NCBI RefSeq assembly: GCF_002831565.1
Contig: NZ_CP025096.1
Location: forward strand, 806,001 to 870,000
Length of the DNA stretch: 64,000 nucleotides
Source: Spirosoma pollinicola
GTDB taxonomy: Bacteria > Bacteroidota > Bacteroidia > Cytophagales > Spirosomataceae
Direction of reading: 5' to 3'
The position numbers and the translations under genes were made by a program. The notes under the pieces are model-generated. The model ran no database searches and was not told where the DNA came from. It saw only the letters and a program-made list of their open reading frames with translations. Shown here in pieces: positions 11,958 through 29,469 of the stretch. Numbering within the stretch: position 1 is the first letter of the stretch; every line of letters starts with the position of its first letter.

Positions 11958-13775
11958 TCATCCTATATCTTGTACACTTTTAAAAGCGTCTAAGATATCA
12001 ACAGATACTAACATCGGAATTTCATCTATTATTTTATTAATTATTTCAAGTTTTAAAGCTTCCTCCTTTCCTCTCTTGATCTCATGAAGTTTAGGAAATG
12101 CTTTAATAATTAACTCTTCCAAATCATGACCTTGAAATTGCAAATACCAAATTGGAATTTCTATTTGTAAATTGTTTATTAGTTGAACGGTTTTTTTTTC
12201 ACCCGCTTGAGCTGATGCTACTGATTGCACTTTGTCTACTATAAAGTCTGATATCGCTTGAAGTCTTCCTACAGGCAATGTCTTGAAATCTGTATGATTT
12301 TGATCATTCTGTAGACCCAAATCACTCCTATCTATAAGTTTACTTCGTAAAAGTAAAGCACCTACCAAAATGGGATCTAACAGGTAGCTTTCAATACTAT
12401 ATCTATTACCATCTCCTAAAACTTTTATGAAATCATTACTTTTATTAGTGCTATCATAATCTATTATTCCCCAAACAAAGTTATTGCCAAATTTTCTTAA
12501 AATAGTCGTTATGTTTTTTACTTGGTCACAATTTGGAACTTTGGTACCATTTTTATCTGTCCTACTATCACCAGATGATATAAAAGATAAAGACACTTCA
12601 GGCATTAAGAGATATGATAATTTTTGGTATAGATTTTCATAATACAAAACATCATTAGGACTTTCTACAAATACTTGTCTTCTATTCTCATAATTAATAC
12701 TAAAGGAAGGGACACCTGATGTAAGTATTTTTAGCGCCTTATCTTTAGTGACCTTCTGAACTCGTTCACCAGTTTTATTTACAATAAAAATACTTTCCTC
12801 TGGTGCAAATGCAACTGTAGAGGGAGAATGTGTGGTGAGAATAACCTTAACACCTTTTGCGGCCAAAAAGACATTTTGAATGACATCAATAAATTGTTTG
12901 GACATAGCAGGGTGAAGCGAGGCATCAGGCTCATCCATTAATAATAGTTTTGGAAATGTAAGGTCAAACTCAGAGTTGTACTGGGCTAGAGCTAAAGACA
13001 TCAATATCTTTTCGCCTGAAGAAAGTTCGCTGAATTCAACCTCTGCTTTTGTTAAGTTATTTGTTAATTTTATTTCAAATACGTCATCTCTACGATAGAC
13101 GCTTGGTGTACTAATACGATAGTCTAACCGAGCTTCTGAAATTATTTTATTGGCGAAGTCCCAGGGAGCTTCACCATAAATAGCTATAAAATCTTCTTCT
13201 TCTAAATATGGATAATTATCAATTTGATTATTTTCTTTTAAAAACTTACGGTAGCGATTTTCGTCAAGCTTATCTTGATAGCTTTTGAATAGTAGTGAGA
13301 AAGATTGATGAAAAATATCTGTCCCTTTAATGCCAGCATCTAATGGTATATGAAATAAGTAATCATCTATCGTTAAATCTATTATATTCTTTTGGGCAAG
13401 TATTGATATTTTTCTTGCTGTTTTTTTGTCTTCATCTGATAACATTCTATCAAGATGAGGCGGAGCCATAAATCCATCATCGGTAAAATACTTTTTAACT
13501 TGGTTAAATCTTTGCCAGTATTCTACTACAATTTGCCTTGCAGCTTCTTTTGTTGTAATTCTATTGCTATTTGGAGCAAGACTTTGTGATGTAACAAATT
13601 TCTTAGGATTAATTTCTATACCATCATCATCATATACCGTCGAAATCTCCTGTTCAATACTATTAAGTAACTGAGTTTTTCCAGCCCCGTTTAGGCCAGT
13701 TAAAATTACTAAATTAGGGAGTTCGATAGCAAAAGAATTAAAAGATTTAAACTTCTGCTCTAATATTAATCTCAT
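11958..13775 (-). CDS. ABC-type ATPase fused to TOPRIM/DUF4435 domain (OLD/PARIS-like defence protein)
   Basis: A 605-residue protein. The N-terminal ABC ATPase (AAA_15/21 type) has Walker A GLNGAGKT at about 26-33, signature ELSSGEKILMSLAL, Walker B PKLLLMDEPDASLHP and an H-loop LTTHSPSTV. From about residue 360, VFVESPNDVLYYENLY and GIIDYDST supply the Glu and DxD acids of a TOPRIM fold, most like DUF4435. This order matches OLD nucleases and single-chain versions of the PARIS pair AriA-AriB, which respond to phage proteins. The gene is clearly AT-rich against its surroundings, stands alone, and is probably acquired cargo used against competing phages. The exact class is undecided. Confidence 0.8.
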   Translation of the reverse strand: MRLILEQKFKSFNSFAIELPNLVILTGLNGAGKTQLLNSIEQEISTVYDDDGIEINPKKFVTSQSLAPNSNRITTKEAARQIVVEYWQRFNQVKKYFTDDGFMAPPHLDRMLSDEDKKTARKISILAQKNIIDLTIDDYLFHIPLDAGIKGTDIFHQSFSLLFKSYQDKLDENRYRKFLKENNQIDNYPYLEEEDFIAIYGEAPWDFANKIISEARLDYRISTPSVYRRDDVFEIKLTNNLTKAEVEFSELSSGEKILMSLALAQYNSEFDLTFPKLLLMDEPDASLHPAMSKQFIDVIQNVFLAAKGVKVILTTHSPSTVAFAPEESIFIVNKTGERVQKVTKDKALKILTSGVPSFSINYENRRQVFVESPNDVLYYENLYQKLSYLLMPEVSLSFISSGDSRTDKNGTKVPNCDQVKNITTILRKFGNNFVWGIIDYDSTNKSNDFIKVLGDGNRYSIESYLLDPILVGALLLRSKLIDRSDLGLQNDQNHTDFKTLPVGRLQAISDFIVDKVQSVASAQAGEKKTVQLINNLQIEIPIWYLQFQGHDLEELIIKAFPKLHEIKRGKEEALKLEIINKIIDEIPMLVSVDILDAFKSVQDIG

Positions 13776-23179: not shown

Positions 23180-23875
23180 ATGAGTTTAGCACACTTAATA
23201 AAGCAAGGGCGCAAAAATAGAGGCTGGACACAGCAGCAGTTAGCCGACGCATCTGGAGTCAAAAGAGAAATTATAGCAAAAGTTGAAACTGGAAAAAGTG
23301 GATTTGGTGCTGATAATCAGAAAGCAATCGCTGATGTATTCGGAATTTCACCAGTAATGCTGGAATTTGTAAAATCTGATTCACAAATTATCACAAAAGA
23401 TAAACAGAGTTCGGAAGTAGCGAAGAACGTTAAGCCGTTGGTTTATTTTTCACAACTTCCTGAAAAAGACGCCGATCTTTACATCCCCTATTACGATGTT
23501 GAGATTACTGCCGGCCGCATTGAACTGTACTTTGATGATGTTGATGAGATTCCGGAAGGATATATTTATGCACCCCAGTACCGGGATTGTATTGCCTGCA
23601 ACGTGAAGGGAGATTCGATGTATGACCGGATATTTCCCGGATCAAGATTATACGTCTACCACCTGCCGAATAAGAAGTACATTGATTTCGGGCAAATTTA
23701 TTTGGTCGTTCTGGATGGGTATCGCTTGCTCAAGTACGTCCACCCCCACCCTAGTGACGAGACCAAGATTGTCCTCTCCTCTTATAATAAGCACTATAGC
23801 GATTGGTCAGTAGACCGTGTTGATATTTTGAACTTGTTTTTGGTAAAAGGCTATGAGAATCAAAATGCTATTTAA
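23180..23875 (+). CDS. LexA/CI-like phage repressor (XRE + S24 peptidase)
   Basis: A 231-residue repressor. Residues 5-62 form the XRE helix-turn-helix (GWTQQQLADASGVKREIIAK). The C-terminal part is an S24 self-cleaving domain with Ser146 in GDSM, Lys185 in RLLKY and an Ala111-Gly112 bond in ITAGR as the likely cleavage site. It would hold the prophage silent and be inactivated by RecA after DNA damage. It is transcribed away from the early operon over paired TTGTGA operators. All key residues are present, so the switch appears intact. Confidence 0.92.
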   Translation: MSLAHLIKQGRKNRGWTQQQLADASGVKREIIAKVETGKSGFGADNQKAIADVFGISPVMLEFVKSDSQIITKDKQSSEVAKNVKPLVYFSQLPEKDADLYIPYYDVEITAGRIELYFDDVDEIPEGYIYAPQYRDCIACNVKGDSMYDRIFPGSRLYVYHLPNKKYIDFGQIYLVVLDGYRLLKYVHPHPSDETKIVLSSYNKHYSDWSVDRVDILNLFLVKGYENQNAI

Positions 23876-25337: not shown

Positions 25338-25458
25338 ATCTTTAAGGAAATATATAAATTACAAGGACGGATTTACCATTAAAGGTTATATGTTCTTACT
25401 ACCCTTATCGGATACCTATAAGCAAAGTTAATATCAAACTTTATTGAAATATTTTTTT

Positions 25459-25971
25459 ATGGAAGACTTTCTACCAACAATTAGAGAAATAATTTCGGGA
25501 TTAGTTTTAGCTGGTCTATCCTGGACAGGGTCTTATATTTGGAATAAATATATTAGGCGTATCAACATTCGACAATTACCTTCATGGGCTACCTATGGAT
25601 TAATTATTTACGCTTTTTTATCAATTACAATACTAGCTTTTCAGTATTATCAGCTACATAAACCATTAAAAAAGCATATCAATGAAGTTTTTGATCATCA
25701 AACAGTTGTTCTTGATGGCAATTCTTATCAAAATTGTGTTTTTAATAATTCTTTGTTAGTGATAGAGGGTGTTAGGCGATTTGAACTCTCTAGTCCAGTT
25801 CTATCTAATACTCAATTTAAACTTGACAAAAGAGCTAATATTGGTTTAAGTATTTTATTAATGATGAAAGAAGATAAGGCAATGGAGCCAAATGTCATGA
25901 ATTTTTTTGAAAGTCTTAAATATGCAAAAATTAATGATAGTTTACCCGGCGTAACAATAGAGGATCTTTAA
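25459..25971 (+). CDS. Two-helix membrane protein with beta-rich tail
   Basis: A 170-residue protein. ATG at 25459 is preferred to a TTG 15 bases earlier. Two membrane helices (about 9-27 and 46-66) are followed by a tail with DGNSYQNCVFNNSLLVIEG, a pattern like a short beta-helix or pentapeptide-type strand, and a helical end. It is visibly AT-rich and followed closely by a coiled-coil gene. Function unknown. The topology suits an accessory or exclusion protein. Confidence 0.6.
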   Translation: MEDFLPTIREIISGLVLAGLSWTGSYIWNKYIRRINIRQLPSWATYGLIIYAFLSITILAFQYYQLHKPLKKHINEVFDHQTVVLDGNSYQNCVFNNSLLVIEGVRRFELSSPVLSNTQFKLDKRANIGLSILLMMKEDKAMEPNVMNFFESLKYAKINDSLPGVTIEDL

Positions 25972-26021: not shown

Positions 26022-26288
26022 ATGAGCATTCCATTAATTGAATTAGAAAACAAAAAAAATGAACTTGAAAATAAAATTGCGAAGGCAAAATCTTTAATAG
26101 ATCAATTGGGAGAAACACTAGAAAAAGATGTTAATAATATATCCAAAAGTGAAGAAATAATTAATCTGAAAAATCAAATATATCGTGATATTGAATTTCG
26201 CAAAAAACAATGTGAAGAATTTGAACAAACCTATAACGCAATTTTGGATGAAATTAAACTCGAAAAACTTTTATTTAATTTAGATTAA
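26022..26288 (+). CDS. 88-residue coiled-coil protein
   Basis: Almost entirely charged heptad-like helix (LIELENKKNELENKIAKAKS, ILDEIKLEKLLFNLD). It lies 50 bases after the two-helix membrane gene and may be its partner. It is AT-rich. No family can be named; coiled-coil proteins give weak similarity to many others. Confidence 0.5.
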   Translation: MSIPLIELENKKNELENKIAKAKSLIDQLGETLEKDVNNISKSEEIINLKNQIYRDIEFRKKQCEEFEQTYNAILDEIKLEKLLFNLD

Positions 26289-26308
26289 TAAATAGAATTT
26301 TTAAGTTA

Positions 26309-26380
26309 TCAATCATCCTCAATAATAACCCCCATCGCTGAATCCAGACCCTCCCTTCAAAGCAGTTCATTTACCGCTGT
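26309..26380 (-). pseudogene. Remnant of a tyrosine integrase 3' end
   Basis: Read leftward, the last codons give REGLDSAMGVIIEDD and stop. This nearly repeats the end of the intact integrase at 27905 (REGLDSAMGAIFGED and stop). The DNA shares CCCCCAT-GCTGAATCCAG with one differing base, and ACCGCTG about 30 bases further on. Further in, the frame is broken. The intact copy has the same orientation 1.6 kb to the right, so the intervening two-gene module is bracketed by integrase ends. Confidence 0.72.
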
Positions 26381-26492: not shown

Positions 26493-26969
26493 ATGATTTT
26501 GTACTCAACAAACGTTTTCTTAAAATATCATATTCAACAAAAATATTTTAATGACGTTCATTATGTCTGGTGTAGCGAACTCTTTGATAGTAAAACTGCT
26601 TCTATTTATTCGCCAGGATCACTAGTGCCGCCAAGTTCCAATCCAGCAGACATATATCGACAATTGAAAGCAGATGTTTCAGGTGGAGATTCGCATAGTG
26701 CTAAAATTGTTGAACAACGAGCTTCAATTATAGCCCGGGCAACTGAGTGGGAGATAAATGGCGTAATTAATAGTTTGGTTAAAGATGACATTATTTATAT
26801 TGCGACCAATGGTTCTATTAACTATTGGAGACCCTTAATATATGTAATACCCAAAGCGCCATTGATTACTCGCTTACATACCGTACCAGCAAGCAAGTGT
26901 GCTGGACTAGGTACAGAATATATAATAAATGATTTAAACAGAGCTGAATTTGATATTATCGAATTATAA
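26493..26969 (+). CDS. First gene of an AT-rich two-gene module, function unknown
   Basis: A 158-residue soluble protein. It has the segments KYFNDVHYVWCSELFDSK, EQRASIIARATEWEING and IYIATNGSINYWRPLIYVIP, suggesting an alpha/beta fold. No membrane segment, signal peptide or known catalytic motif is seen. It is followed after 2 bases by a 308-residue gene, so the two are surely co-translated. The pair is AT-rich, sits next to the integrase, and is bracketed by integrase 3'-end copies. The setting is typical of phage-borne defence or toxin modules. No known family is recognised. Confidence 0.65.
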   Translation: MILYSTNVFLKYHIQQKYFNDVHYVWCSELFDSKTASIYSPGSLVPPSSNPADIYRQLKADVSGGDSHSAKIVEQRASIIARATEWEINGVINSLVKDDIIYIATNGSINYWRPLIYVIPKAPLITRLHTVPASKCAGLGTEYIINDLNRAEFDIIEL

Positions 26970-26971
26970 TT

Positions 26972-27898
26972 ATGTTACAATCATTAAGAAATATAGAGTC
27001 GGTAAAAGCTCAATCTGTTTTGGCTGATATTACCATTTCTTTTCTACCCAATCCTTATGAAACTTCCTATATAACTAATTCTTTTGGAGATATACACAAG
27101 TTAGTTTTACAGGAGGTAAGAAAAAGGACTTATGTTAAAGAAGATGACAATTCATTAAAAGCTCGAACAAAAATACTCTCATTTCTAACAACTGAAATGA
27201 CAAACCTTTCGTTAACGCCTGAGCGAAAGAAGAAAGCAAAGGAGCGTTTGGGCGATATCGGGATCTTACCAATACATGATTATAAAGTGAAATTTACAAA
27301 CACTTTTAAATCATTTGAGGATATGGGAATAAAGACTTCTCATATTTCTAATGCTATATTAAGATCAGACAAATATTTTCACGTTGAGGATATTAAAACA
27401 CCGATAAGTTTTTTTACAAAAAAGATTAATACTGAATTGCCGGAAGATGTATTCATTCTTCTGATAATTACATCAAGGGAAAAAGCTTCGCTCGTGGTTA
27501 GGGGTGCTTGGCGAGTTTATTTATCGGAAGTTAATGCATCAGATGACTATAACCCCTATCAATTGTTTCTAACATTTCTAGAAAGATATGGCTTGACAAT
27601 ACGTGTATCAAATTCGGATTGGGCAAAATTTATACCGTTTGAAGTGGTAACTTCACAATCTGAAAATTTACCTTATCTAGTAAAATATCAAAACCTCGAC
27701 ACCAATACTCAACAATTTATGTCATGTGCGGTTGTCAAGAAAACATCTGTTATAAATGTGTATGAAGTGTTTTGTATTTATTCTGTTGACATTGATATGT
27801 ATCAGCATGATTTAAGAAAACATGGTATCGAGTTTTCAAATAAGTTTGATATTAGAAATCAGTTTGTTATTCACACCGAAACATTTCAACTACCCTAA
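26972..27898 (+). CDS. Second gene of the AT-rich two-gene module, function unknown
   Basis: A 308-residue soluble alpha/beta protein. It has a basic helical region at about 60-105 (LTPERKKKAKERLGDIGILP) and a beta-rich C-terminal half (EDVFILLIITSREKASLVV; VVKKTSVINVYEVFCIYS). No nuclease, ATPase or TIR motif could be found. It starts 2 bases after the 158-residue gene and ends 7 bases before the convergent integrase gene. Its size and strict pairing suggest a two-component system in which one part may sense or restrain the other. This is speculative. Confidence 0.65.
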   Translation: MLQSLRNIESVKAQSVLADITISFLPNPYETSYITNSFGDIHKLVLQEVRKRTYVKEDDNSLKARTKILSFLTTEMTNLSLTPERKKKAKERLGDIGILPIHDYKVKFTNTFKSFEDMGIKTSHISNAILRSDKYFHVEDIKTPISFFTKKINTELPEDVFILLIITSREKASLVVRGAWRVYLSEVNASDDYNPYQLFLTFLERYGLTIRVSNSDWAKFIPFEVVTSQSENLPYLVKYQNLDTNTQQFMSCAVVKKTSVINVYEVFCIYSVDIDMYQHDLRKHGIEFSNKFDIRNQFVIHTETFQLP

Positions 27899-27904
27899 CT
27901 TTTC

Positions 27905-29227
27905 TTAATCCTCCCCAAAAATTGCCCCCATTGCTGAATCCAGCCCTTCCCGATCGAAGCTGTCCAGATACCGCTGAGTGGTATCGAGCTTGGTATGACC
28001 CAGGGCCTGCCGGATATCATCAATCGAAATGTTCTTTGACTCCTTCATCATCCGACGGGCTTTATCGGCAAAGCTGTGGCGGGCCGTGTGGAACGTTAGC
28101 CGTTCGGCAATTCCGGCTTTTTTAGCCAGGGTCTTTAGCTCGCCATTGATCTCGGCCTGCACACTGGAGATATCATTATACAGCTGAATGGCCAGCTCCC
28201 TGGGCATTTTCTTTTTCTGCTCGTAACTAACGTACGAAGCATAGTCAGCCTCATCCGAGAGCACGCCAAACAAATAGCTATCAGTCGTCGTACCGGGCCG
28301 TTTGAAGAGCTCAATGATGCCCCTGGCTTTTTTGTTAAGCCTTGTCGACATAAATTCACCGGTTTTGCTCATCTGGTACTCCAGCCGTTCACTACCCGTC
28401 TCCCCCACGATATTCGAATACCGTAGCTGCAGCACATCTCTGGAACGGATGCCCCCCATCTGGTAGGCAAACAGATAGAGCCACTTGGCCCGAAAGAGCC
28501 AGACACCTGCGCTATAGGTTCGGCCCAGCGTATCGGTTCGGGGTGCTTCCACGTCAACAGATTCCAGGGCGGCCACCTGTTTATCACTGAGCTTTAAGCG
28601 GGGCGCTGGCTTTTCGACGGGCATATCAAAATGCAGAAACGGATCTTTGTCCAAAAGCTCCAGCTTCATGGCCTCCAGGGTCATTCGCTTGATTCGGGCA
28701 AAATAGGTTTTCTGGGTGCCGCCCATCATGCCCTCCGCCTGAAGTTTTCGCTTGAAGCGGTTGAGCAGGTCCAAATTAATACTGGTTAGGGGAATGTCTT
28801 TTCCCGCAAACTCGACAAAACTGTGCAGCCTGGATTTAACGTTTCGTTCATACCCAACCGAGTTGGTACCCACCTCCGCAATAATGCGGTCGGCGAAGCT
28901 GCCCAGCGTCCAACCCCCATTGGGCCGATTGCCCGTCATGCGCTCCACCAGGCCGGTTCCGGTGGCCACGCCCGTCGCGTTGAGGTCCAGGTGTTCATCT
29001 TCAGCTTTACGGAGCAGGTTTAACAGCGTCAGGTTAAACGCTTTTCGTTCGGGGTTTTTACTGATCCAGTTGCCCCGGTCGGCGTGGGGATTGAATTCGC
29101 CTAACTTTACCGAGATCCCGGTTTTAACCCGCCTGGATACCCGGTCTGCCACGATGCGAAGGAAAATATCGTAGGTGCCGTTTTTTCTGGGCTTATTGTT
29201 GAGGCTGAATTTGTAGGTGATGCGCAT
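27905..29227 (-). CDS. Tyrosine-type phage integrase
   Basis: A 440-residue site-specific recombinase with an arm-binding N terminus (RITYKFSLNNKPRKNGTYDI), a SAM-like core-binding domain (about 100-205) and a catalytic domain. The active-site set is complete: Arg in GGIRSRDVLQL, Lys in YQMSKTGEF, His-x-x-Arg in LTFHTARHSFADK, His in QALGHTKLDTTQ, and Tyr in QRYLDSF. It would integrate and excise the element. A tandem 12-base repeat lies just upstream of its start. An integrase 3'-end remnant lies at 26.3 kb. Confidence 0.95.
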   Translation of the reverse strand: MRITYKFSLNNKPRKNGTYDIFLRIVADRVSRRVKTGISVKLGEFNPHADRGNWISKNPERKAFNLTLLNLLRKAEDEHLDLNATGVATGTGLVERMTGNRPNGGWTLGSFADRIIAEVGTNSVGYERNVKSRLHSFVEFAGKDIPLTSINLDLLNRFKRKLQAEGMMGGTQKTYFARIKRMTLEAMKLELLDKDPFLHFDMPVEKPAPRLKLSDKQVAALESVDVEAPRTDTLGRTYSAGVWLFRAKWLYLFAYQMGGIRSRDVLQLRYSNIVGETGSERLEYQMSKTGEFMSTRLNKKARGIIELFKRPGTTTDSYLFGVLSDEADYASYVSYEQKKKMPRELAIQLYNDISSVQAEINGELKTLAKKAGIAERLTFHTARHSFADKARRMMKESKNISIDDIRQALGHTKLDTTQRYLDSFDREGLDSAMGAIFGED

Positions 29228-29263: not shown

Positions 29264-29399
29264 TTCCCTTTTGTTTATTTTCTACTATCTTTACTAGCGC
29301 ACTTTACAAACTTGCTTAATCGCCTTTAATTGATGTGTTTAGCTTAGTTAAGCGCAAATGAACCTAATATGTTGTAACTTCCCCATGGTCACACAGAAA

Positions 29400-29447
29400 A
29401 ACAAATAATGCGCTGGTAACGAATAAGTTACAGCGCATTATTTGTTT
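29400..29447. terminator. Long bidirectional terminator hairpin
   Basis: Arms of 20-21 bases (ACAAATAATGCGCTG-GTAAC and its complement) pair with a single bulge around a 6-base loop. T-runs or A-runs occur on both sides. It insulates the element from host genes to the right. Confidence 0.8.
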
Positions 29448-29469
29448 TATAACCAGAACATTACTGAAA

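Follow-up and report, generated by a model that had tools for sequence, protein, structure and literature searches.

A conserved gene pair at the integrase end of a Spirosoma prophage combines a predicted ADP-ribosyltransferase-fold protein with a predicted RelE/ParE-like partner

Background

Toxins with ADP-ribosyltransferase (ART) activity that are encoded together with an antitoxin are already known from DarTG, CmdTAC and RES-Xre, and the gene pair described here may be a further case. It lies in a stretch of 64,000 nucleotides of Spirosoma pollinicola (contig NZ_CP025096.1, positions 806,001 to 870,000), which we call the window and to which all coordinates refer unless stated otherwise. 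The pair consists of gene A (26493..26969, plus strand, 158 amino acids) and gene B (26972..27898, plus strand, 308 amino acids). Our favored interpretation, to which we assign a probability of roughly 40%, is that the pair is a conserved prophage cargo and forms a toxin-antitoxin-like defence module, with A being an ART effector and B a fast-evolving partner that restrains it.

CmdTAC shares this predicted plan of an ART effector, a restraint encoded by a neighbor and a release triggered by phage: there, capsid protein causes the antitoxin to be lost, and the freed ART modifies mRNA (described in excerpts of PMC11618068). However, CmdTAC comprises an mRNA ADP-ribosyltransferase toxin, an antitoxin and a SecB-like chaperone, whereas the pair has two genes, a Pfam scan of nine proteins from the window gave no SecB-like chaperone, and B is a RelE-like multidomain protein of 300 amino acids. 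Furthermore, A does not show the H-Y-[EDQ] pattern that the same excerpts report for CmdT (PMC11618068). From DarTG the pair differs, since the DarT profile PF14487 had no match in A in the Pfam scans and the macrodomain of DarG had none in B. A search of ten B sequences also gave no macrodomain match at E ≤ 0.5; in VIA-align a macrodomain never appeared for B either, although absence there does not amount to exclusion. In darTG, the toxin gene comes first and the antitoxin gene second, as do A and B. DarTG also resembles the pair in combining an ART-fold toxin, as predicted for A, with a partner gene (PMC9967889, in part), and the same applies to RES-Xre and ParST (VPA0770) (PMC12457610, in part). 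Unlike in RES-Xre, B has no helix-turn-helix or Xre match and A no RES match.

The predicted core of B, in turn, remotely resembles the RelE/ParE (BECR) superfamily including DUF4258, with a fold match and a low-probability profile alignment that spans almost all of this family. B differs from these proteins by an additional helical N-terminal domain, a C-terminal extension and an ART-like gene as neighbor instead of a DNA-binding antitoxin. No pairing of an ART-like gene and a multidomain protein of RelE-like type was met in the literature searched, which was largely available as listings and excerpts.

Results

The pair is conserved and inherited together

Both genes are located on the same strand and are separated by two bases in the open reading frame (ORF) list, so that the coordinates given in a preliminary description, which was made from the sequence alone, were reproduced exactly. 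Its statements on composition and on the lack of recognizable features were borne out as well. The GC content is 35.0% for A and 31.9% for B, whereas the window has 46.1% and the integrase gene next to the pair 53.1%. The best Kyte-Doolittle means over 19 residues (0.94 for A and 1.21 for B) stay below membrane strength; as to the claimed absence of a signal peptide, no dedicated program was run. Neither protein has a PADLOC or PHROGs match at E ≤ 1, the comparison with Pfam and NCBIfam gave scattered matches only, all of them below cut-off, and a sequence search of the PDB with A and with B gave no match at E ≤ 1.

The homologue search yielded 110 proteins besides A, most of them 140-170 amino acids long and 48-67% identical, among them one full-length relative with 35% identity. 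Most of these homologues are encoded on short contigs. A B-like ORF follows the close A homologue in all eight distinct genomes where this can be tested, with a spacing of -8 to +4 nucleotides. The eight are the window, S. terrae, S. aerolatum, Geomonas limicola and metagenome-assembled genomes (MAGs) labelled Thiomicrorhabdus, Acidobacteria, Rhodospirillales and Gemmatimonas, which, judged by these labels, we take to represent five phyla. Four of the eight loci are MAG contigs, one of them of only 3.3 kb. The count leaves out two loci where the match lies inside a glycosidase-looking ORF of 345-479 amino acids (L013, L014), one with a 30% match inside an ORF of 1013 amino acids (L006), one whose contig ends after A, so that B was not checkable (L016), and the repeated occurrences of the window (L015, L085) and of S. 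terrae (L002, L017).

Across the eight genomes, A is 39-60% and B 18-38% identical, and A is better conserved than B in all 28 comparisons. The distances of A and B are correlated (Pearson 0.64; reached by 19 of 5000 Mantel permutations), which indicates that the pair travels together. A and B are thus two adjacent, co-inherited genes, as in type II toxin-antitoxin systems. Of 99 relatives, exactly those three that carry a close A also have B; a diverged A occurs in another two, and in one the match was spurious. The preliminary description had named absence of a conserved pairing, or clear homology to a housekeeping or structural family, as grounds for abandoning the idea of a two-gene system. 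Neither was found, the pairing being present in 8/8 testable genomes. Together with the homologues of A, this conserved pairing makes a chance arrangement an insufficient explanation.

The pair has a lower GC content than its locus in every one of the eight genomes and it is rare. A was detected in the starting genome only, both among 395 sampled Bacteroidota and among 396 genomes of the phylum of the Acidobacteria MAG, and in five of 36 genomes of the genus, two of these with a diverged A. There was no match to A in phage records and one diverged match in plasmids. Some pairs are located away from recognizable phage genes, beside ORFs which by eye resemble insertion sequence transposases. In the Thiomicrorhabdus MAG, the gene diverging from the pair (L009, 369-1583, minus strand) looks like what we take to be the RNA ligase RtcB, a hint towards RNA damage. 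In the sequence searches, B looked like a near-orphan, with three proteins including B itself for the single sequence and five for an alignment. The B-like ORFs beside the A homologues suggest that this reflects a limit of the search.

A is predicted to have an ART-type fold

The predicted model of A shows the split beta-sheet core of ARTs, and the top rows of the fold search are DUF952, PTS_2-RNA, Pertussis_S1, AvrPphF-ORF-2 and RES, all of which are given as families of the ART clan in the available part of PMC7955679. Several residues are invariant as in an enzyme, namely S5 (96/96), H23 (106/106), W26 (107/107), D66 (108/108) and E142 (107/108). Glu142 opens the strand 143-149, which we take as the fifth core strand, and so it occupies the position of the catalytic glutamate and is the candidate catalytic residue. 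A catalytic glutamate on the fifth core strand is part of the definition of the H-Y-E and R-S-E classes of ARTs (PMC7827354, in part). Strand 1 of A (2-8) carries Y4, S5 and N7, and since there is no histidine or arginine as in the canonical H-Y-E or R-S-E class, A is filed in neither of them. According to the same part of that source, Tpt1 and ParT also deviate from the canonical pattern, and DarT belongs to neither class (PMC7827354).

Comparisons with hhalign gave no decisive link to a single ART family. For DUF952, where the comparison drew on 20 of the 56 matched sequences, 48 out of 100 column shuffles did equally well, and the comparison with KptA (13 of 13 used) was at noise level, since 41 of 100 shuffles reached the score. 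With DarT, the score was 21.72 compared to 21.6 for the best of 100 shuffles, over 16 columns outside the catalytic region; this set contained 11 of 17 matches, after removal of sequences that were interrupted by stops, were fragmentary or had a very long frame. Because accepted ART families do not detect each other in the same set-up, these comparisons neither support nor exclude a link between A and the ART families.

B has a predicted RelE/ParE-like core

According to an AlphaFold2 model (pLDDT 81.0, pTM 0.72), B probably consists of a helical N-terminal domain with a conserved LPxP (residues 1-96; 26972..27259, plus strand), followed by a remote RelE/ParE-like core (residues 102-214; 27275..27613, plus strand). 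In the model, the core adopts the BECR fold and resembles RelE, YoeB and HigB. Conserved residues of B include H137, R169, Y277 and H284. There is no Pfam match for B by hmmscan.

In the alignment of the core to 22 DUF4258 sequences, approximately residues 113-181 cover 65 columns over positions 6-71 of 72, with an E-value of 8.7e-4 for this one comparison, a low probability of 23% and none of 100 shuffles being as good. The set consists of 22 of 27 matches and does not include three loci that were fragmentary and two that were not retrieved. A subset of six sequences also beat all 100 shuffles (18.9 versus 16.6), over 22 columns and 68 after realignment, at an HH probability of 5%; for the whole of B the HH probability was 7%. 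With HH probabilities as low as 23% and 5%, the proposed resemblance of B to DUF4258 rests on the shuffles together with the fold. DUF4258 is one of 13 families of BECR-fold toxins, its target being given as unknown (Table 1 of PMC11980606, the part of the source used here).

Diverged A-like genes have other partners

All of the five diverged A-like genes examined are without B, yet another gene on the same strand follows closely. In two Spirosoma genomes, G035 and G026, the A-like gene precedes a gene for a cold-shock-domain protein, with gaps of 41 and 64 nucleotides. On a Sinorhizobium plasmid and on two viral contigs with phage structural genes, the A-like gene is followed by one for a protein of 120-125 amino acids, overlapping by 4-8 nucleotides. 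Such an exchange of partners is to be expected of a toxin that is combined with different antitoxins. In G035 and G026, the A-like and cold-shock genes (L079, 7956-9079; L080, 9263-10412) lie between the same neighbors, and therefore this version looks vertically kept. B could be aligned with the whole cold-shock protein over 64 columns (E 0.084, with no shuffle control). An N-terminal antitoxin domain shared by the three types of partner, as suspected by eye, found no support, with 3, 29 and 3 of 100 shuffles reaching the scores, over 16-27 columns.

The pair occupies a cargo slot at the end of a prophage

The neighboring integrase named in the preliminary description is a tyrosine integrase of 440 amino acids (27905..29227, minus strand; PF00589 with 3.7e-12, PF13102, PF17293; phrog_1), and the pair is located at the integrase end of a prophage. 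Approximately 59.6 kb lie between two exact copies of a 16-bp repeat, one beside the integrase (29380..29395), which is the probable att core at the right end of the prophage, and the other at contig positions 775831-775846. An IMG/VR provirus covers nearly the same stretch; its end coincides with the integrase start and does not reach the att core, which lies 153 bases further on. A perfect inverted repeat (29398-29448; arms of 18 and a spacer of 15 nucleotides) begins two bases past the att core and might either belong to the integration site or act as a terminator of the host.

The slot that holds the pair extends from the integrase to a CI-like repressor (23180..23875, plus strand; HTH_3 and Peptidase_S24 in Pfam). 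In a prophage family of Vibrionaceae, the interval between cI and integrase is a published site of defence genes (PMC9122126, in part). A close integrase (E ≤ 1e-60) is present in five of the 36 genomes of the genus and is full length in four. The content of the slot beside these four differs: the window and S. terrae carry the A-B pair, G014 has other genes and G007 has just two small ones. In the same slot of S. terrae, A is preceded at a distance of 24 bases by a defence-type ATPase with matches to the models of AriA, AbiL and GajA.

Further genes were noted in these prophages. Beside the pair, two further AT-rich genes encode a protein of 175 amino acids with a hydrophobic stretch and a match to phrog_26297 (25444-25971; 9.1e-08) and a coiled-coil-looking protein of 88 amino acids with weak matches only (26022-26288). 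Elsewhere in the same prophage, an AT-rich patch (32-33% GC) contains the gene for a defence-type AAA ATPase of 605 amino acids (11958-13775, minus strand), matching PADLOC ATPase-Toprim_I-B (4.7e-23) and also the PtuA and AriA models. The slot of the G014 prophage, whose integrase is 70% identical, carries genes for 346, 172 and 185 amino acids (L091, 6784-9041), and the first two lack both a PADLOC match (E ≤ 0.01) and a Pfam match that passes the cut-off. In S. terrae, a gene for 259 amino acids without an above-cut-off family match lies between B and the integrase (L017, 9690-10469, identical to L008, 11690-12469).

The repeats said to bracket the pair exist (26306-26355 and 27902-27951; 50 nucleotides, 80% identity), but they are weak and turned out to be an integrase-tail fossil rather than the hallmark of a mobile module. 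The right copy corresponds to the 3' end of the integrase gene. The left copy can be aligned with the last bases of this gene over 78 nucleotides (26302..26379, minus strand) with a local score of 81, compared to 31 for the best of 500 shuffles. On the minus strand it reads REGLDSAMGVIIEDD and then ends in stops, which resembles the integrase C-terminus REGLDSAMGAIFGED. The left repeat is therefore a remnant of the tail of another, second integrase gene. The simplest explanation would be that an older block was replaced, via recombination near the integrase gene, by the block carrying the pair and the integrase, leaving the old tail behind.

Discussion

Several observations argue for an ART effector that is restrained by B: A is constant and has changing partners, B evolves fast, the two genes are tightly spaced, they occupy a defence slot, and A has a predicted ART fold. 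In such a module, A would consume NAD+ while modifying a conserved target, and the partners, RelE-like or with a cold-shock domain, lead us to guess that this could be an RNA or a component of translation. B would bind A directly and hold it inactive until phage infection removes or displaces B. The released A would then poison the infected cell, and this abortive infection would shield the prophage from rival phages. CmdTAC illustrates that the plan of an ART effector freed by a phage exists. Of the undescribed, acquired two-gene defence system suggested in the preliminary description, the conserved acquired unit, the lack of a named family and the position at the integrase end of a prophage hold, while the defence role remains a proposal.

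Two points weigh against our interpretation. The weaker ART rows in the fold search of A tie with unrelated folds, and in DUF4258 modules the antitoxin gene comes first and the toxin is usually the second gene (A/T in Table 1 of PMC11980606, a source available in part). The latter favors the main rival, in which the roles are reversed: the core of B would be the effector, either an RNase or a gyrase poison, and A a conserved activator or inhibitor, perhaps one that modifies B. The resemblance of B to the RelE/YoeB/HigB fold and to DUF4258, a BECR toxin family, fits this explanation, and multidomain BECR defence proteins have been described (PMC11980606). However, A is the constant and highly conserved member and B the fast-evolving one, and no RelE-like family was found in the partners of the diverged A-like genes, so that we regard reversed roles as rather unlikely. 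We also doubt that A is not an ART at all and that the two proteins are a non-toxic pair binding or processing nucleic acids, with a fold that merely resembles that of ARTs.

The carriage of the pair by prophages would also suit a phage enzyme for counter-defence or takeover, comparable to AcrIF11, an ART encoded by phages and plasmids (PMC12421852, in part), and for many of the ARTs of viruses, macromolecules of the host are the presumed targets (section 13 of PMC9503650). Against this, a partner gene is present wherever this can be checked, also away from recognizable phage genes, and a function like that of AcrIF11 should need no fast-evolving partner, which makes this explanation quite improbable. 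A pair for RNA repair related to Tpt1/KptA is the least probable alternative and hardly to be expected, since A has no match to PF01885 in Pfam, did not rise above noise in the comparison with the 13 KptA sequences mentioned above, and lacks the N-terminal lobe of Tpt1, with matches that begin at Tpt1 residue 91 or later.

One could go further and assume a new class of ADP-ribosylation immunity, in which one toxin fold, that of RelE/ParE, has been converted into both sensor and lock for another, the ART fold of the caged effector. The effector family would then use exchangeable locks (RelE-like, with a cold-shock domain in two Spirosoma, or of 120-125 amino acids in phage contigs and the Sinorhizobium plasmid), with every lock responding to its own sign of infection, probably one on RNA or the ribosome. 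We consider this extension of the restrained-effector module speculative and unlikely as a whole. To our knowledge, a RelE/ParE-like protein serving as the lock of another enzyme would be new biology for this superfamily.

Conclusions

The slot between repressor and integrase in Spirosoma prophages is a place to look for further defence genes. If A is an ADP-ribosyltransferase, it adds an unnamed and widely scattered family to the ARTs that are used between bacteria and viruses, one whose active site would be divergent and whose partner would be unusual.
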